This document shows, in pieces, positions 4,107-18,532 of a DNA stretch of 20,059 bases. The translations under genes were made by a program, and so were the position numbers. The first letter of the stretch is position 1. Every line of letters starts with the position of its first letter. The stretch spans positions 1 through 20,059 of the forward strand of contig JAHDCH010000015.1 of the NCBI GenBank assembly GCA_020629995.1, written 5' to 3'. Under the pieces are notes generated by a model that saw nothing but the letters and a program-made list of their open reading frames with translations, ran no database searches and was not told the DNA's origin. The stretch is from Pseudaestuariivita sp. (GTDB lineage: Bacteria; Pseudomonadota; Alphaproteobacteria; Rhodobacterales; Rhodobacteraceae).

Positions 4107-4700
4107 ATGTTCACCGGGATCGTCACTGACATTGGCGTGGTGCGGCAGGCCGAGATGCGCGGCGATCTGCGCGCGCGGATCGAAACGGGCTATGACACCG
4201 CAACGATCGACATCGGAGCCTCGATCGCCTGCGACGGCGTGTGCCTGACCGTCGTCGATCTGGGCCCGGATTGGTTTGACGTCGACATTTCGGCGGAAAC
4301 GGTCGCAAAGACCAACATCGGCCACAACGCGTGGGAGGCCGGGCGCAGGCTGAACCTTGAACGCGCGCTCAAGGTGGGGGACGAACTGGGCGGGCATATC
4401 GTGTCGGGGCATGTCGACGGCGTCGCGCCGATTGTCGAGATGCGGGACGAGGGCGACAGCACCCGCGTTGTGCTTGAAGCGCCCGAAGCGCTGGCCAGGT
4501 TCATCGCGCCCAAAGGGTCGGTCGCGCTGAACGGCACATCGCTGACGGTGAACGAGGTCGATGGCCGCAGGTTCGGGATCAACTTTATCCCGCACACCAA
4601 GGCCGTAACCACATGGGGCGACGCCAAGGCGGGCGATCAGGTGAACCTCGAGATCGACACGCTGGCGCGCTATGTCGCCCGGCTGGCCGAAGCGGGCTAG
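4107..4700 (+). CDS. ribE: Riboflavin synthase, alpha chain
   Basis: This 197-residue cytoplasmic enzyme dismutates two molecules of 6,7-dimethyl-8-ribityllumazine into riboflavin and the pyrimidinedione recycled by lumazine synthase. Two tandem lumazine-binding barrels are visible: residues 1-96, beginning MFTGIV and containing ACDGVCLTV with Cys46, and 97-190, containing GGHIVSGHVDG with His102, LNGTSLTVNEV and EIDTLARYV. All are family hallmarks. I chose the ATG at 4107 because MFTGIV is the near-universal start of this family and a GAGGAAG ribosome site lies six bases before it; longer frames upstream are not supported. The rest of the riboflavin pathway is not adjacent. No FMN riboswitch is visible upstream. 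The stop codon TAG overlaps the stop codon of the convergent photolyase-like gene. Confidence 0.95.
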   Translation: MFTGIVTDIGVVRQAEMRGDLRARIETGYDTATIDIGASIACDGVCLTVVDLGPDWFDVDISAETVAKTNIGHNAWEAGRRLNLERALKVGDELGGHIVSGHVDGVAPIVEMRDEGDSTRVVLEAPEALARFIAPKGSVALNGTSLTVNEVDGRRFGINFIPHTKAVTTWGDAKAGDQVNLEIDTLARYVARLAEAG

Positions 4701-5908
4701 AGCGGCAACGCCATCTGAGCGCGGTCGATCCGGGCAAGGATCTTGGGGATCTTGTCCTTGAACTTGAAAAAGCCGGCCGTGGCAAAGGGCCAGGCATGGC
4801 TGTCGTAGTCGCGGCGCAGCTGCACGAGGGTGATGCCATGGCCCTGCAGATTACGGTCGGCGGCCGCAAGCACCGAAGCCGTGGGCCCCACTGGGGCGTA
4901 GGCTGTCACAACCTGCTGCAAGCCTGACTCAACGGCCCATTCGGTCAACTCATCCGCGGTGACAACCGGCGACACAGCGGGCGTTCCGGGCCAGCGCGCG
5001 ACGGCATCGTCCAGTGCCGCGGTGCGGAACGCTGGCACATGTGGTGCCATGTGCAGGATCGCGGTGGTTGTTTCCGGCTCGAGCCGCGCGTGCGCGTCCG
5101 GGTCGGGAACGGCCTGCCAGACATGCGCGGGCGCGCAATCTTCCTGTGTCAGAAGGACGCCGGTTCGCAGATTGGGTGCCACACCCTGCGCCACGGGCAA
5201 GGTGCCGCATGGAGGATTTTCGAACCCGTCCAGAGGTGCGGCAAAGGCTGCAAGCTGGCCCGACGGGTCGAACCTGCCGCCGGTGTATTTGCGGATATTG
5301 TCGGGGCGGGCGAGATAGGTCTTGCCGACGGTCTGCATCCCGCCCACCCAGCGCCAGCCCAGCGTGTTGGACGCAGGATCCCCATCCAGCAAGTGCCGCA
5401 GGAAGAAATCCGCGCCCAGCTCCCACGGCAGGCGCAGGGTATAGATCCAGATCGAGGCAAACCACATGCGCGCGTGATTGTGCAGGTATCCCGTCTCGGC
5501 CAACTCCCGCGCCCAATGGTCGAAACAGGCGATGCCGGTGTCGCCCTTGCAGGCGGCTTCCCATTCGGCGCGCAGGCCAGACGAGGTTTGTACGCGGTTC
5601 CAGGCATGGCGCAGGTCGGCCTCGTAGCTGGTCCAGACCGAAGGGCGCAGTTCCAGCCAGCCTTTCCAGTAGGTGCGCCAGACGACTTCCTGGACAAATT
5701 TCTGAACGGTGCTTGGTGCATAGCGTTCGGTGACGGCGGCCAGCACCTCTTCTTCGGAAATCAGGCGGTGACGCAGGTAGGGCGACAGGCCCGACACATG
5801 CGGATGGCCCGGCAGATCAAAGTTGCGCTGGGATGCATAGACCCCGGCGAGAGGCAGAAAGCGGTCAAGCCGGGCGAGGCCGGCGGCACGTGTGGGCTCG
5901 AAGGTCAT
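4697..5908 (-). CDS. Photolyase/cryptochrome-like FAD protein with apparently reordered domains
   Basis: This is a 403-residue flavoprotein of the DNA photolyase/cryptochrome superfamily. The FAD-binding helical domain occupies residues about 15-220 at the N-terminus: SGLSPYLRHRLIS (39-51), FVQEVVWRTYWKGWLE (71-86), GYLHNHARMW (140-149), LLDGDPASNTLGWRW (173-187) and DNIRKYTGGRFDP (203-215). By alignment with E. coli photolyase, the electron-transfer Trp triad appears retained (W185, W162, probably W116), and Asn181 matches the Asn that contacts flavin N5 in photolyases. The usual antenna alpha/beta domain before it is absent. Residues about 248-395 instead look like such a domain placed after it, ending in GITLVQLRRDYD and FFKFKDKIPKIL, which resembles the end of a normal antenna domain. 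The start ATG lacks an obvious ribosome site. DNA repair or light sensing is plausible but not proven. Confidence 0.82.
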   Translation of the reverse strand: MTFEPTRAAGLARLDRFLPLAGVYASQRNFDLPGHPHVSGLSPYLRHRLISEEEVLAAVTERYAPSTVQKFVQEVVWRTYWKGWLELRPSVWTSYEADLRHAWNRVQTSSGLRAEWEAACKGDTGIACFDHWARELAETGYLHNHARMWFASIWIYTLRLPWELGADFFLRHLLDGDPASNTLGWRWVGGMQTVGKTYLARPDNIRKYTGGRFDPSGQLAAFAAPLDGFENPPCGTLPVAQGVAPNLRTGVLLTQEDCAPAHVWQAVPDPDAHARLEPETTTAILHMAPHVPAFRTAALDDAVARWPGTPAVSPVVTADELTEWAVESGLQQVVTAYAPVGPTASVLAAADRNLQGHGITLVQLRRDYDSHAWPFATAGFFKFKDKIPKILARIDRAQMALPL

Positions 5909-6005
5909 TGGGAGGGTGTAGGATTGCGGGCAGGCGCTTCAATGGTTCGTTAACGCTTTTCGGTGATCCAGCGGGGCGCGGAAGCATGTCTTGGCTGCAG
6001 CCTCC

Positions 6006-6035
6006 CTTGAAGGTCGGCTGGCGCAGGACTAAGAC
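6006..6035 (+). promoter_or_regulatory. Candidate heat-shock (RpoH-type) promoter for clpP
   Basis: CTTGAA at 6006-6011 is followed after 17 bases by CTAAG (6029-6033), about 55 bases before the clpP start. CTTGAA is the -35 consensus of alphaproteobacterial sigma-32; the -10 match is partial (the consensus is closer to CYTAT). Read as a housekeeping promoter it is TTGAAG-N17-TAAGAC. clpP is a classic heat-shock gene, which supports the reading. Confidence 0.4.
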
Positions 6036-6088
6036 TCTCCGGCAAGGCGCAGACGCGCGCCCCGAGGCATTGAAACGAGGCAGGCAAG

Positions 6089-6721
6089 ATGCGCGACCCG
6101 ATTGACACCTACATGAATACGCTTGTGCCCATGGTGGTTGAGCAGACCAGCCGCGGCGAACGCGCCTATGACATCTTTTCGCGCCTGCTGAAGGAGCGCA
6201 TCGTGTTCCTGTCGGGCCCGGTGCACGACGGCATGTCGCAGCTGATGGTGGCGCAGCTGCTGCACCTTGAGGCGGAAAACCCCAGCAAAGAAATTTCGAT
6301 GTACATCAACTCGCCCGGCGGCGTGGTGACCAGCGGGCTGTCGATCTACGACACGATGCAGTATATCAAACCCAAGATCGCGACGCTGGTGGTGGGGCAG
6401 GCGGCCTCGATGGGCTCGCTTCTGCTGGCGGCCGGTGAGCCGGGCATGCGCATGTCGCTGCCCAACAGCCGCGTGATGGTCCACCAGCCGTCGGGCGGAT
6501 ATCAGGGCACCGCAACCGACATCATGATCCACGCCGAAGAGACGCTGAAGCTCAAGCGCCGCCTGAACGAGATCTATGTCCGCCACACCGGTCAGACGCT
6601 CGAAAAGGTTGAAGCCGCGCTCGAGCGCGACTACTTCATGTCGCCCGAGGAGGCCAAGGACTTTGGCCTGATCGACGAGATTGTCGAAAGCCGTGGCAAG
6701 GGCGATGACGCAGAGGCCTGA
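6089..6721 (+). CDS. clpP: ATP-dependent Clp protease proteolytic subunit
   Basis: This 210-residue protein is the serine peptidase that forms the double heptamer chamber of the cytoplasmic ClpXP and ClpAP proteases. The complete catalytic triad is visible: Ser107 in GQAASMGS, His132 in VMVHQPSGG and Asp181 in ERDYFMS, with the same spacings as the E. coli enzyme (25 and 49 residues). The substrate-binding YINSPGG is at 72-78. A short N-terminal segment ([18 protein letters not shown]) leads into the handle region. A GAGG ribosome site lies eight bases before the ATG. clpX follows 142 bases downstream in the same direction and may have its own promoter. Length and content are standard for Rhodobacteraceae. 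Confidence 0.97.
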
Positions 6722-6863
6722 TGCGGCTTGCCGCGCGGCGGGTCCATTAACGGCATTTTGACGTTGTGGTGCGCAAGTCGAGCGCCTAAGCTGGCGACGA
6801 CTTGGGATACGTTAACAAACAAGCGCAGGTCAGCGGGGCGACTGGCGGGCGGATAGGTGTAAC

Positions 6864-8126
6864 ATGGCGACGAATTCTGGCGGCGACAGCAAGAACACCC
6901 TCTATTGCAGCTTTTGCGGCAAATCTCAGCATGAGGTCCGCAAGCTGATTGCAGGGCCGACCGTGTTCATCTGCGATGAATGCGTCGAATTGTGCATGGA
7001 CATCATCCGCGAGGAAACGAAGGCCGGTGGCCTCAAATCCTCCGAAGGCGTGCCGACGCCCAAGGAAATCTGCGAAGTTCTGGACGACTACGTGATCGGC
7101 CAGTCCGTGGCCAAGAGGGTCCTGTCGGTTGCCGTGCACAACCACTACAAGCGCCTGAACCATGCCCAGAAATCCGGCGACATCGAGCTGGCGAAGTCCA
7201 ACATCCTGCTGATTGGCCCGACGGGCTGTGGCAAGACCCTGTTGGCCCAGACGCTGGCCCGGATCCTGGACGTGCCGTTCACCATGGCCGACGCCACCAC
7301 GCTGACCGAAGCTGGCTATGTCGGTGAAGATGTCGAGAACATCATTCTCAAGCTGCTCCAGGCGTCCGAATACAACGTCGAACGCGCGCAGCGCGGCATC
7401 GTTTACATCGACGAAGTCGACAAGATCACGCGCAAGTCCGAAAACCCCTCGATCACCCGCGACGTGTCGGGCGAAGGTGTTCAGCAAGCGCTGCTCAAGC
7501 TCATGGAAGGCACCGTGGCCAGCGTGCCGCCGCAAGGTGGGCGCAAGCATCCGCAGCAGGAATTCCTGCAGGTGGACACAACCAATATCCTGTTCATCTG
7601 CGGTGGCGCCTTTGCTGGCCTCGACAAGATCATCAAGCAGCGTGGCAAAGGCTCGGCCATGGGCTTTGGAGCTGACGTGCGCGACGAAAGCGAAGCCGGG
7701 GTGGGCGAGACGTTCAAGGATCTCGAGCCCGAAGATCTGCTAAAGTTCGGCCTGATCCCCGAGTTTGTGGGCCGTCTGCCGGTTCTGGCTACGCTGGAGG
7801 ATCTGGATCAGGACGCTCTCGTGACGATCCTGACCCAGCCAAAGAACGCGCTGGTCAAGCAATACCAACGCCTGTTCGAGTTGGAAGACACCGACCTGAC
7901 CTTTACCGACGAAGCCTTGGGCGCGATTGCCAAGCGGGCGATCGAGCGCAAGACCGGCGCGCGCGGCCTGCGGTCGATCCTCGAAGATATCCTGCTGGAC
8001 ACGATGTTCGACCTGCCGGGAATGGACAGTGTGACCGAAGTGGTCGTGAACGAAGAAGCGGTCAATTCCGACGCTGCACCGCTCATGATCCACGCCGAAG
8101 GCAAGGAAACAGCAACCGCCGGCTAA
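6864..8126 (+). CDS. clpX: ATP-dependent Clp protease ATP-binding subunit ClpX
   Basis: This 420-residue AAA+ unfoldase recognises, unfolds and threads substrates into ClpP. Domains in order: an N-terminal C4 zinc-binding domain (Cys15, Cys18, Cys37, Cys40) for adaptor and substrate binding; Walker A GPTGCGKT (118-125); pore loop GYVG (151-154); Walker B IVYIDE (179-184); RKH loop (227-229); and a sensor-2 segment with GARGLRS near residue 370. The ClpP-docking loop reads M266-G-F rather than the E. coli I-G-F, a conservative change. It lies 142 bases downstream of clpP. A REP doublet begins eight bases after the stop and may protect the 3' end or help terminate the message. Confidence 0.97.
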
Positions 8127-13389: not shown

Positions 13390-15777
13390 CTATAGAACAA
13401 AGTCGGCGGCTGTGAGGCTGGGTGCGCCGTCCAGCCTGAGGTCGAAATCGGCGATCCCGTCACCATCGACATCGGCCTGCACGATCGTGAAGGCGCCGGC
13501 TGACGCCAAGCGCACTTCGCCCGCGGTGCCCGAGAAGGCAGTCGTTCCGATGAAGGTGAATGCATCGTTGGCCCCGCCCGGGATCGCGTCGATGGCCGAC
13601 AGGTCGATCTGGTCGATACCGGGTTCAAAGTCGCGGATGATGTCGCGGGTCCCGGTCCCGGAGAAGCTTTCGTCCACGGTCGCGAAATAGAAGGTGTCGG
13701 CTTCGCCGTCGGGCACAAAGACGCCACCCGAAAAGGTGCCGCCGTTCATGATATCGCGCCCGCCGCCGCCCGAGATGAGATCTGCGCCCGTGCCGCCACG
13801 TACGACGTCATTTCCTGCGTAGCCGAACAGAGAGTCATTCCCGGTTCCGCCGTCCAGAGTATCAAGCCCCGTGCCACCGATGATGGTGTCGGCCCCGCCG
13901 CCACCCACGACAAGGTCATTGCCCCCGCTGGCAGACAAAGTGTCGTCGCCGCCCAGTCCAAATATGCGATCACTGCCCGAGGACGAGGTAATCAGATTGG
14001 CGCCAGTGGTCCCCGTCAGAACATCGTTGCCCGTACCGGTTGTGAGGTTTTCGATGTTGAGGATGACGTTGGTCCCCGAGGGGCCGGTGTTCTGGGCGGT
14101 GGTGGTGTTCAGATTGACCGTGATCGCCCCGTTATAATCGAGGAAATACAGAATATCCACGCCATCGCCTCCATCGACGAAATCGTCGCCGGGGCTTTCG
14201 AAGATAGCGTCATTTCCGTCGCCTGCGACAATGGAATCCTGGCTGAAACCGCCATCCAGCGTGTCGTTGAAATTGGTCCCGGTGATCGTATCGTTGCCGA
14301 AACCGCCATTCCCGGTAAAGCCGAGCTGCTGATCGCCGACCAGGGTAATGAGATCGCCGCCGCCGCCTCCGGTGACGAACACGCCGGTCAGAACGTCCGC
14401 GTGGTCCGAACCGATCAGGTTGTTGACGTTGACCAGAATGTCCCCTTCTGCATCGCCGCCCATGCCGATCCCGGTCTGGGTGTTCACGGTCACGCCCTGA
14501 TCCGATCCTTCATACGAGGCCGTGGTCCAATTGGGTTCGAGACCCACAAGAATGTCTGCACCCGAGCCACCGAGAAAAGTGACGAAATTGAAAGGCGTAT
14601 CGGCAGCAAGCACGTCATCACCGTCCCCGCCGGTCAGGACGCCGGATCCTGACAGCACGTCATCCCCGGCCCCGATCTCGTACCCGATCACATTGTCCAG
14701 ACGAATTTCCGGTGACAGCCAGAACAACGCATCCCCAACCTGCGCCAAAGTGCCCAGCCGGTTGTCGCGCGATGCTCCCGCGGACGTGCCGACAATATCC
14801 ACAATGTTCAATGCGCCAAGCGCCAGGGAGCTGTCGCTGATTTCGTAGGTGTAGATCGCGTCGCGCCCTTCGGGTTGCACCAGAAGATAGGGCTGTGCGC
14901 TGGACTCGAAGAGTGCAACCGAGCTGACCCCCGTCAGCGAAAGCTGCGAATTCTGAGCGGCCAGGCTGAGGGACAGGTTGAAATCAAGCTCGAGGGTGAA
15001 CAATCCGTTGGTTTGGTCGGCGATGTAAAAGAACGACGATGATCCGACTTCGATCGCCGCGATGTCGACCATGTTTGTCGCGGCGGGCACCGAAAGGCTT
15101 TCGATGATGACCAGCGCGCCAGTGGCTTCGTTCACCGAATAGACCGAGACCGTGTTGTTGTCGGCATCAGCAATGACCATGCGGAACTCGGACGCGGTGC
15201 TGTAGGTGTGCATCGCCGTCACATTGCCGATCTCGGTTGAGGCAGAATCGTTGATATTGCTGACAAATGTCAGAATGCCGGAGGAATCGACGCTGTAGAC
15301 CACCAGACCGTCATCGGTGTCGGAGGCGGCATAGATGTAGGTTGCTGTCGGGGTCTCAAGCACTTCGATCAGATCAACGCCCTGCAGGTTGGCGATCGGG
15401 GACAGCGCCTCGAGCGCGCTGTCGGTCAGGGTGGCATAGGGGCTGCTGTCGGTCAGGGCAAAGACCGAAAACCCGGAATCGTCCGAACCGGCCGCGACCA
15501 GAAACTGGTTGCCGCCCACTTCGAACGTGTCGAGCGATTGCACGTTCTGAAGCGCGGACACGCCGCTGTCGGACAGGGTTCCGACATTGGTCATGGTGCC
15601 GGACGCGTCCAGCGTATAGATTTCGACGGCGTCTTCTGTTGCGCTGCCTATGTAGACAAATGTCGTGCCATTGATCACTGTGCTGACGATTTGCGAGGCA
15701 TTGTTCAACTGAGCCGCGATATCATCCGAAGCAACGGTGCCGAGAGTGTCAGCGGCGACGCCTTGGGAAGTAAACAT
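13390..15777 (-). CDS. Secreted RTX protein with N-terminal beta-propeller-like domain (paralogue 1)
   Basis: This 795-residue acidic protein has no signal peptide, as expected for type I secretion. Residues about 25-368 hold some seven repeats with strands such as TFVYIGS, QFLVAAGS, TYIYAAS and SFFYIAD, each followed by a V/IxxY/F-type strand; this suggests a seven-bladed propeller of the lactonase/YVTN kind. Residues 370-675 carry about nine strict GGxGxDxxx calcium-binding nonapeptides and as many degenerate ones, interrupted by GVTVN...GGDAEGD and ITVNLNTTTAQNTG spacer modules. Residues 675-795 resemble the serralysin (M10) C-terminal region, with IIRDFEPGIDQIDLS, an EF-hand-like DVDGDGIAD (769-777) and terminal DFVL, a typical type I secretion end. 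I find no Lys and no Cys. The ATG is preceded by GGAGAGG. No transporter genes are nearby. No enzymatic motif is recognised. Confidence 0.87.
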   Translation of the reverse strand: MFTSQGVAADTLGTVASDDIAAQLNNASQIVSTVINGTTFVYIGSATEDAVEIYTLDASGTMTNVGTLSDSGVSALQNVQSLDTFEVGGNQFLVAAGSDDSGFSVFALTDSSPYATLTDSALEALSPIANLQGVDLIEVLETPTATYIYAASDTDDGLVVYSVDSSGILTFVSNINDSASTEIGNVTAMHTYSTASEFRMVIADADNNTVSVYSVNEATGALVIIESLSVPAATNMVDIAAIEVGSSSFFYIADQTNGLFTLELDFNLSLSLAAQNSQLSLTGVSSVALFESSAQPYLLVQPEGRDAIYTYEISDSSLALGALNIVDIVGTSAGASRDNRLGTLAQVGDALFWLSPEIRLDNVIGYEIGAGDDVLSGSGVLTGGDGDDVLAADTPFNFVTFLGGSGADILVGLEPNWTTASYEGSDQGVTVNTQTGIGMGGDAEGDILVNVNNLIGSDHADVLTGVFVTGGGGGDLITLVGDQQLGFTGNGGFGNDTITGTNFNDTLDGGFSQDSIVAGDGNDAIFESPGDDFVDGGDGVDILYFLDYNGAITVNLNTTTAQNTGPSGTNVILNIENLTTGTGNDVLTGTTGANLITSSSGSDRIFGLGGDDTLSASGGNDLVVGGGGADTIIGGTGLDTLDGGTGNDSLFGYAGNDVVRGGTGADLISGGGGRDIMNGGTFSGGVFVPDGEADTFYFATVDESFSGTGTRDIIRDFEPGIDQIDLSAIDAIPGGANDAFTFIGTTAFSGTAGEVRLASAGAFTIVQADVDGDGIADFDLRLDGAPSLTAADFVL

Positions 15778-16026
15778 TGTGCAAATCCTCTCCTGAAATC
15801 ACTCTTCGCCTGGCAAAGATGGCGCGTTTTCCAATGTCATTTGCCCCGTCATACGGGGGGTGGGCAGGTGTCTGGTGCGCAAGGACCGAGGCCGTGAAAG
15901 CCGCGGTCGCCCGCAGTGGCGCGCCGAAAAACCGTTGGCGCGAAGTGATCAAAAACTTGGGCAAAAGGTTAACAGCGCAGGCTTGTGTCGTAAACCGTGC
16001 CGGCGCTTCTGCCCGGAGGCTGACCC
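15778..16026. other. Intergenic region between the two RTX genes
   Basis: These 249 bases separate the stop of the upstream RTX paralogue from the start of the downstream one, both on the minus strand. I see no gene and no strong terminator hairpin. The ribosome site of the downstream gene is at its edge. A promoter for the downstream gene probably lies here, but I could not identify one with confidence. Confidence 0.3.
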
Positions 16027-18426
16027 TTACAGGATGAAATCACTGGCCGTCAGCGTCGGAGCGCCGTCGAGCCGAAGTTCGAAATCGGAAATGCCGTCTC
16101 CGTTGACGTCTGCCTGCACAAGCGTGGAGGCACCGGCAGACACAACCCGCAATTCGCCTTCGAGGCCTGAAAAGGCCGCGCTGCCGATAAAGATGAAGGC
16201 TTCGTTCGTGGCGTTGCTCAGCTCGTCCGCGTCGATGAGCGACAGATCGATGATGTCGGTGCCCGGTTCAAAGTCACGGATGATGTCGCGCTGGCCGCCC
16301 GGGGTGCTTTCGGCGATGTTGCCAAAGTGAAACGTGTCGGCATCGCCGTCAGCCACGAAAGAGCCGCCCGAAAACGTGCCGCCCACCAGAATGTCGCGCC
16401 CGGGCCCGCCATCGATCAGGTCAGCCCCCGTGCCGCCGATCAACTGGTCGTTGAGCGATCCGCCATCCAGCGTGTCGTCGCCGGGGCCGCCATTGAGGTT
16501 GTCGAGCCCAAAGCCACCAACCAAGAAGTCATTTCCGCCACCACCATTCAGCACGTCATTGCCAAGCTGGCCCAGCAGGGTGTCGTTGCCGCCAAGGCCG
16601 AACAGATTGTCAGAGCCCGACGCACCATCCAGCAAGTTGTCGGCGGTCGATCCGACAAAACGGTCGTTCCCGATGCCGCCCAGCACGCCTTCGATATTCA
16701 GCAGCGTATCGGTGCCGCCCGCACCGGTGTTTTGCGCCGTCGTGACGGCCAGCGACAGGTCCACCGTTCCGCCGGTGTCCGAGTACAGGATGTAATCATA
16801 GCCCGCGCCACCATCCAGCGTGTCGTTGCCCGGGCCGCCCACCAGAGTGTCATTGCCGTCGTTTCCAACCAGTGAATCCTGGCTGGCTCCGCCATCGAGG
16901 TAATCATTTGCGCTGTCACCGATCAGGGTGTCATTGCCCGTCTCTCCGTAAAAGATCGCTGGCAGGCCAGGAACGGCCATCAACAAGTCCGAAAGCGCGC
17001 CGCCTTCGGCCTCTTCGGCGGTGATGACGTCCACAAAATCCGACCCCACGACCGCTTCGATGCTGAAGAACGTGTCGCCCTCGGCATCGCCACCCAGCGC
17101 CAGCCCGAGGGCGAGGTTCACCGTCACGCCGCTGTCCGAGCCGCTGTAATCCGCAGTATCGGTGGAATCGCCGCCAAACAGCTGATCGGCGCCCGCCCCG
17201 CCATCGAACAGGTTGCTGCCGTTCAGGCCCAGCAACACGTCATTCCCGCCGCCTCCGATCAACGTGTCGCTGAACATGGTGCCGACCACGACATCGTCAC
17301 CGCCGCCCACAAGATAAGAGCGGACCGCATCGGCGCTGAACCCTGCTGCCAGCAGGATCACTTGCCCATCCACGACCACGCTTGTGGACCCGTATACCGT
17401 TTCGCCAAAGATGCCTGTTGTTTCAAACGCGCCAACGGGCACCAATTGCCCCTGGTTGGGCGCGCCTGCCGGAGCGATCTGATACAGGCTGACGTCAGCG
17501 TCCGATTGTTCAAACGCCGCAATGTACTGGCTGTCGCCTGCCTGGAACAGATCGAGGCTGAAGGTGAACGTGGAGTTTGGGGCAGATGTGACCTGTTGAA
17601 TATGTGTCAGGGACCCGCCATTAAACTGCGTCACGTTTACGCCGCCGATGCCATCTTGGCTGCTTGTGTAGATATAGGCGTTGCTGCCGACGACGGCGAC
17701 CTGGATGTCATAGACCTCGGAATAGGTGTCGGTCCTGATCCCGCTGGTCACGGTGTCCACCGCCGACAACGCGCCGGTGCTGCTGTTCACGCTGAACACG
17801 GTCATGCCGTCGTCCGAGGACCCGGCGACCACAATGTAGTTGGTCCCCCCCAGTTCAAAGGCTTCGATGTCGTAGATGGCGTCAATGGCCAGCGCAGCCG
17901 TGTCCGGAACATCGTCTACATGGGTCAGCGCACCTGTTGCATCGACCGAAAAGATGGACAGGCCATTGTCAGTCTGCGCACCGGCGTAGATGAACGCGGT
18001 GCCGCCCACCTCGACAACCCCGATCCCCCAGACGTCGCTGAGGTTATAGTCGACGTTTTCGCTGTCAAAAACGGTGTCAGCCAGGGTCAGGTACGGCGCG
18101 GTGTCCGACAGGATATAGGTCGAAATCCCGTCCTCTTGCGAGCCGATGACCAGCATCTGCACCCCGCCGACAGTGAATGTTTTCACTTCGATCACAGAGT
18201 TCAACGCAGCCAAAGGGCCATCCAGAACCGACCCGACCGGCGTCAGCGTTCCGTCCGCGTCCAGGGTCGAAACCTGAATGGCGTTTTCGACATACGATGT
18301 GCTGTAGACAAAGGTCGTGCCGCCGATGACGGCGGTGTCGACCTCGAGAGGGCCCTCCAGAGTGGTGCCGCCACTTTCGATCAGCTCGTCAGCCAGTGAG
18401 AGGGAAACGCCAGAAACAACAGCCAT
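16027..18426 (-). CDS. Secreted RTX protein with N-terminal beta-propeller-like domain (paralogue 2)
   Basis: This 799-residue protein has the same architecture as its neighbour: propeller-like repeats (about 25-370; TFVYSTS, QMLVIGS, AFIYAGA, NYIVVAG, AYIYTSS, QYIAAFE, VILLAAG), an RTX block (about 372-680) with about ten strict GGxGxD nonapeptides, and a serralysin-like end containing IIRDFEPGTDIIDLS, a DVNGDGISD calcium loop and terminal DFIL. The last 120 residues are close to those of paralogue 1 (roughly two-thirds identical by eye), so the pair arose by tandem duplication. I chose the ATG at 18426, with GGAG seven bases upstream; a TTG at 18441 would add five residues. There is no signal peptide and no Cys, and only one Lys. 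It is probably exported by a type I system encoded elsewhere. Its function is not known; adhesion, matrix or calcium-dependent surface roles are guesses. Confidence 0.87.
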   Translation of the reverse strand: MAVVSGVSLSLADELIESGGTTLEGPLEVDTAVIGGTTFVYSTSYVENAIQVSTLDADGTLTPVGSVLDGPLAALNSVIEVKTFTVGGVQMLVIGSQEDGISTYILSDTAPYLTLADTVFDSENVDYNLSDVWGIGVVEVGGTAFIYAGAQTDNGLSIFSVDATGALTHVDDVPDTAALAIDAIYDIEAFELGGTNYIVVAGSSDDGMTVFSVNSSTGALSAVDTVTSGIRTDTYSEVYDIQVAVVGSNAYIYTSSQDGIGGVNVTQFNGGSLTHIQQVTSAPNSTFTFSLDLFQAGDSQYIAAFEQSDADVSLYQIAPAGAPNQGQLVPVGAFETTGIFGETVYGSTSVVVDGQVILLAAGFSADAVRSYLVGGGDDVVVGTMFSDTLIGGGGNDVLLGLNGSNLFDGGAGADQLFGGDSTDTADYSGSDSGVTVNLALGLALGGDAEGDTFFSIEAVVGSDFVDVITAEEAEGGALSDLLMAVPGLPAIFYGETGNDTLIGDSANDYLDGGASQDSLVGNDGNDTLVGGPGNDTLDGGAGYDYILYSDTGGTVDLSLAVTTAQNTGAGGTDTLLNIEGVLGGIGNDRFVGSTADNLLDGASGSDNLFGLGGNDTLLGQLGNDVLNGGGGNDFLVGGFGLDNLNGGPGDDTLDGGSLNDQLIGGTGADLIDGGPGRDILVGGTFSGGSFVADGDADTFHFGNIAESTPGGQRDIIRDFEPGTDIIDLSLIDADELSNATNEAFIFIGSAAFSGLEGELRVVSAGASTLVQADVNGDGISDFELRLDGAPTLTASDFIL

Positions 18427-18532
18427 GAAATCGCTCCGCAAAATCCTTGATAAAGAGGTCTTTGCAGAATTTCAGACGAGTCTATGCAATCTGGCAAGTA
18501 TGGGAATCCGGTCTCGGCCCGGATGGCAGGGG

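Follow-up and report, generated by a model that had tools for sequence, protein, structure and literature searches.

The question raised by this locus is whether a photolyase-like flavoprotein can carry its flavin adenine dinucleotide (FAD) domain first and an antenna-like domain behind it, and whether that order is new. The gene lies at 4697-5908 of the window, the whole 20,059-nucleotide stretch of Pseudaestuariivita sp. analysed here (assembly GCA_020629995.1, contig JAHDCH010000015.1). A first-pass annotation had read it, from weak similarity, as a circular permutation and knew of no detailed description of such an order. Taken together, the results suggest that the protein is a NewPHL-class photolyase; we place the probability of this explanation, mechanism included, at about 0.93. 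The domain order is already known and fits that class: within the excerpted text of the sources, it is in print for NewPHL (Emmerich et al. 2020, NAR 48:12845; D. shibae A8LJA9 and M. mesophilicum M7YZC8) and for Phr4/5/6 (Haney et al. 2022). The raw sequence reading recovered a real and unusual domain order, one that others had published.

The reading frame, strand and length stand as first annotated, on the open reading frame (ORF) list and the translation: the minus-strand ORF, stop codon included, starts with an ATG at 5908 and encodes 403 amino acids plus the stop. The features on which the argument draws are:

4697-5908, minus strand: whole gene of the NewPHL-type photolyase, 403 amino acids (ORF and translation, relatives, clade with 20 NewPHL-type rows)
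5237-5908, minus strand: N-terminal FAD catalytic domain, residues 1-224 (model alignment with photolyase FAD halves)
5174-5236, minus strand: linker, residues 225-245 (no secondary structure in the model)
4700-5173, minus strand: C-terminal alpha/beta domain, antenna-like, residues 246-403 (five strands plus helices in the model; fold searches)
4745-4804, minus strand: most conserved C-domain stretch, residues 369-388, consensus D..AWP.AT.GFF.FK.KIP (conservation in 96 sequences)
5354-5356, minus strand: W185, equivalent by alignment to E. coli W382, the FAD-proximal tryptophan; invariant in 96 sequences
5423-5425, minus strand: W162, equivalent by alignment to E. coli W359; invariant in 96 sequences
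5366-5368, minus strand: N181, equivalent by alignment to E. coli N378; invariant in 96 sequences
5585-5587, minus strand: T108, which aligns where E. coli has W306; the third tryptophan of the triad is missing

Fold comparison aligns residues 1-224 of the predicted model with residues 196-461 of E. coli photolyase. The FAD domain therefore begins at residue 1, and not near residue 39 as had been proposed. By sequence, PDB entries of ordinary photolyases match the protein through their FAD half, with query residue 3 as the first to be paired (1tez, E 1.1e-19). The 60 matches listed, of 69, are ordinary photolyases or chance matches and include neither a close relative nor a NewPHL-like chain. 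In the 403-residue protein, Pfam recognizes FAD_binding_7 only (residues 71-218, E 1.6e-23, profile positions 1-144 of 203) and gives no match to the DNA_photolyase antenna (PF00875) at E up to 1.

Residue equivalences come from an alignment with 13 ordinary photolyases, that of E. coli among them (10 of 23, without the second motif, were left out), in the published E. coli numbering, which we take to be one less than a count that includes the methionine. The retention of N181, a photolyase-type asparagine, is upheld. Two members of the proposed tryptophan triad, W185 and W162, also stand; the candidate third, W116, lies opposite a leucine (313 in E. coli). Since T108 occupies the W306 place, the tryptophan chain appears by alignment to be a dyad rather than a triad. 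A dyad is also stated for the D. shibae NewPHL in the excerpted text of PMC8948257.

Behind the linker, the first-pass annotation had placed an antenna-like region at residues 248-395. The domain is present, with somewhat wider limits: residues ~246-403 are predicted as a single five-stranded alpha/beta unit. Its pLDDT is mostly above 90, lower at 271-290 and over the last 13 residues, and residues 236-403 modelled alone give the same fold at 91.5. In fold searches with the whole model, FAD-domain matches took up the list, so the C-domain was folded and searched by itself; photolyase/cryptochrome chains then ranked first, and universal-stress-protein (Usp) folds score close. At its core, the modelled C-domain shows the alpha/beta fold known from photolyase antenna domains. 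In the conservation alignment (96 of 240 listed proteins), D369, W373, G379 and I387 are invariant, and F380, F381, F383 and K384 are kept at 90% or more.

The NewPHL-type architecture is real and common. At least 7998 relatives were scored in a large protein collection. The 120 listed, the window protein among them, are 381-445 residues long with FAD_binding_7 as the sole precomputed domain in all, and the other 119 share 55-71% identity over 95-100% of the query. A search with a member from an AT-rich genome returned mostly proteins of 378-417 residues, besides some fragments of 219-348. Loci with a named source belong to Rhodobacterales and further Alphaproteobacteria; Beta- and Gammaproteobacteria, Verrucomicrobiia, Eremiobacterota and Actinomycetota are also represented, partly by metagenome bins. 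In the class scan, 19 of 289 genomes have a C-domain match, including the window's own; none of 10 matches in phage records covers more than 80% of the query. In one genome (G035, contig C1, 124552-126419; L015, L147) a NewPHL-type gene has as its neighbour, in the same orientation, a photolyase gene of the FeS-BCP type (DPRP).

A further FAD-first group is represented by the Deinococcus plasmid proteins L136 and L137. L137 has 1067 relatives; of the 120 listed, 113 have a CxxC...C motif following the FAD core, and at least 162 residues come after the motif. One relative of L137 (P0341) is a named protein of Cyanobium PCC 7001, a strain listed as a phr6 holder in the excerpted text of PMC9426592, and is probably its Phr6. 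Relatives of these iron-sulfur photolyases also include four chains of 688-709 residues (P0277, P0278, P0279 and P0281) that also contain a uracil-DNA glycosylase domain (PF03167), situated at the C-terminus in the three whose sequences were viewed; such proteins would combine two DNA repair activities in one chain.

To place the window protein, a FAD-domain tree of 65 rows was drawn from 10 of 15 FeS-BCP loci, 18 of 23 ordinary photolyases, 16 of the 120 L137 relatives and the window's own relatives as NewPHL-type rows, one of which (P0209) has 13% of its columns filled. The NewPHL-type (20 rows), class I (18) and FeS-BCP (10) groups are each split off by a single branch with support of at least 100/99, and the iron-sulfur FAD-first rows (FeS-SPL, 16) separate at 92/93. 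Within this tree the window protein groups with the NewPHL-type rows (100/99) and away from the iron-sulfur ones; its nearest neighbour is P0002 (80% identity over 215 columns). Plasmid pPP1 of Persicobacter psychrovividus, a member of the Bacteroidota, carries at L138:2387-3598 a divergent photolyase-like ORF that is also FAD-first; the plasmid table leaves it unannotated, and it sits on a long branch. A single origin of the FAD-first order is neither supported nor rejected: a grouping of all 37 NewPHL, FeS-SPL and Persicobacter rows has support of 46/0, and holding the two larger FAD-first groups together without Persicobacter gives p 0.367 in the approximately unbiased (AU) test. Both trees bring long branches together, and their bootstrap values had yet to converge.

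If the protein functions as a NewPHL photolyase, the reaction likely involves: excitation by light of the reduced FAD in the N-terminal domain; transfer of a flavin electron to a cyclobutane pyrimidine dimer (CPD), probably in single-stranded DNA, with splitting of the dimer; and re-reduction of the oxidised FAD through W185 and W162. The antenna-type C-terminal domain, placed after rather than before the FAD domain, would pack on the FAD site and close it off, and a bound light-harvesting pigment would not be expected. Substrate, repair, sealing and absence of pigment are proposed from the class and from what the abstract of Emmerich et al. is reported to state, and the protein would belong with the characterised NewPHL members. 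Consistent with this assignment, the excerpted text of PMC13274461, citing Emmerich 2020, gives NewPHLs and SPLs CPD repair in single-stranded DNA and an inverted domain topology.

What, then, is the C-terminal domain? The profile-profile comparison proposed with the first-pass annotation does yield a match to the antenna family, a weak one when made directly. The class I antenna alignment used here has 22 rows including E. coli: of 30 PF00875 loci (L106-L135), 8 gave no photolyase ORF by motif and one more was left out. A 68-sequence C-domain profile (72 of 80 related loci gave a motif ORF, and 67 entered with the window protein) scores 29.9% against it. A larger profile of 180 sequences reaches 41.7% over 99 co-linear columns, and 15.9 against DPRP, 9.3 against Usp, 1.1 against CTP_transf and 0.2 against the FAD domain. 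The direct match is too weak alone, and a bridge through the iron-sulfur relatives is therefore needed. Here, the L137 C-domain matches PF00875 below the curated cut-off (E 0.001), that of L136 gives no PF00875 match, and P0260, among the best 120 relatives of L137, has PF00875 precomputed. Against the class I antenna, the C-domain of the 113 iron-sulfur relatives scores 97.3% (134 of 171 columns), and against the window's C-domain family 92.2% (111 columns); other values are 85.8% over 110 columns for DPRP, 75.7% over 35 for Usp and 1.5% for CTP_transf. As yardsticks, the class I antenna itself scores 85.9% against Usp and 1.8% against DPRP.

We take the C-domain to be antenna-type in both FAD-first groups, and it is likely that the same antenna domain moved rather than that a related one was recruited. 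An unlikely but serious alternative is the recruitment, as a lid, of a Rossmann/HUP-like domain from another source, for instance one of the Usp kind. The low direct profile scores weigh against the moved antenna, as does the fold search, in which the end of the C-domain pairs with an antenna-side stretch in few rows only. Because of these few rows, the estimate for the moved antenna was lowered a little and that for the recruited lid raised a little. Against the lid, photolyase/cryptochrome chains take the first four VIA fold ranks and ~40 of 50 rows, a count inflated by many repeat entries of few proteins, and the iron-sulfur C-domain aligns with Usp over a far shorter stretch than with the class I antenna. 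A low profile score also does not exclude kinship, as the yardstick value for DPRP shows, DPRP being the N-terminal domain at the antenna place in FeS-BCP photolyases. On balance, we lean slightly towards the view that NewPHL and iron-sulfur SPL proteins alike have the antenna domain itself as their C-domain, shifted to a place after the FAD domain, and that neither group is antenna-less.

The class assignment itself meets weaker competition. Photolyase-family members can lose repair, and the window genome holds two more members of the family, an antenna-first photolyase on contig C256 and a FeS-BCP-type gene on C223; both points would suit a cryptochrome light sensor without repair activity. 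This reading is improbable: equivalents of E. coli W277 (W77), N378, W382 and W384 (W187) are kept, and the D. shibae and M. mesophilicum class members are cited as CPD photolyases in the excerpted text of PMC9426592. The idea that the protein belongs not to NewPHL but to the FAD-first group with iron-sulfur cysteines (SPL, Cyanobium Phr6) can be given hardly any weight. The domain order is alike and the AU result allows one clade for both groups, but the only cysteines in the translation are C120, C128, C234 and C258, with no CxxC motif, and the tree sets the protein apart from the iron-sulfur rows.

The first-pass interpretation is thus supported in part: the FAD-first order and the antenna-like second domain are borne out by the fold ranks and the iron-sulfur bridge, and the permutation is likely. 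This bears on the ancestral claim for short photolyases, which the excerpted literature cites as possible founders of the family because they have no alpha/beta domain. They appear instead to carry such a domain at the other end, a possible addition to what is known. If this domain is the moved antenna itself, the view that NewPHL and SPL proteins are antenna-less ancestors of all photolyases and cryptochromes would lose its main structural argument. These proteins would then be permuted forms of enzymes with two domains, unless it is the usual order that arose by permutation.

In the window, the photolyase gene stands head to head with clpP-clpX (4697-8126). Among the 80 best-matching loci, mostly Rhodobacterales (flanks of at most 4 kb; 59 of the loci exceed 9 kb), clpP lies within the fetched flank in 41 and clpX in 40, and in 40 of the 41 loci clpP is upstream on the opposite strand. 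A functional tie with the convergent riboflavin synthase neighbour was rejected, the pair recurring in 1 of 80 loci. Further along, at 13390-18441 on the minus strand, two adjacent genes of 795 and 804 amino acids have similar ends and glycine-aspartate-rich repeats of the calcium-binding kind; they are probably a tandem duplicate.

Among known systems, ordinary class I CPD photolyase (E. coli phr, L105) shares the FAD fold, the proximal and middle tryptophans and the Asn378 equivalent, and differs in its N-terminal antenna domain and in the tryptophan at the W306 place. The N-terminal antenna of classes I and III has no counterpart here, where the FAD alignment runs from the start of the chain, and Pfam finds no N-terminal DPRP of the FeS-BCP (prokaryotic 6-4 photolyase) kind in the protein; the DPRP match of the genome belongs to the gene on C223. 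SPL (Xu et al. 2021) and Phr6 share the FAD-first order with an antenna-type domain after it, as found for the L137 relatives. They differ in the CxxC...C cysteines of most listed relatives (the group is marked by four cysteines for an iron-sulfur cluster, and the window protein has no CxxC) and in a C-domain nearer the class I antenna profile. In the excerpted text of PMC9426592 (Haney et al. 2022), Phr4/5/6 have the reversed domain order with iron-sulfur cysteines, and Phr7 of Prochlorococcus has an N-terminal FAD domain and a C-terminal Z-domain, termed an atypical, short photolyase domain, without them. By description the window protein resembles Phr7, including the lack of these cysteines; Phr7 is cyanobacterial. 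The closest likeness is to NewPHL, from which, compared by descriptions of the class only, no difference was found: the FAD domain is N-terminal with no antenna domain before it, the second domain is C-terminal, the topology is inverted, the tryptophans form a dyad as stated for D. shibae, and the hosts are bacterial and partly alphaproteobacterial.
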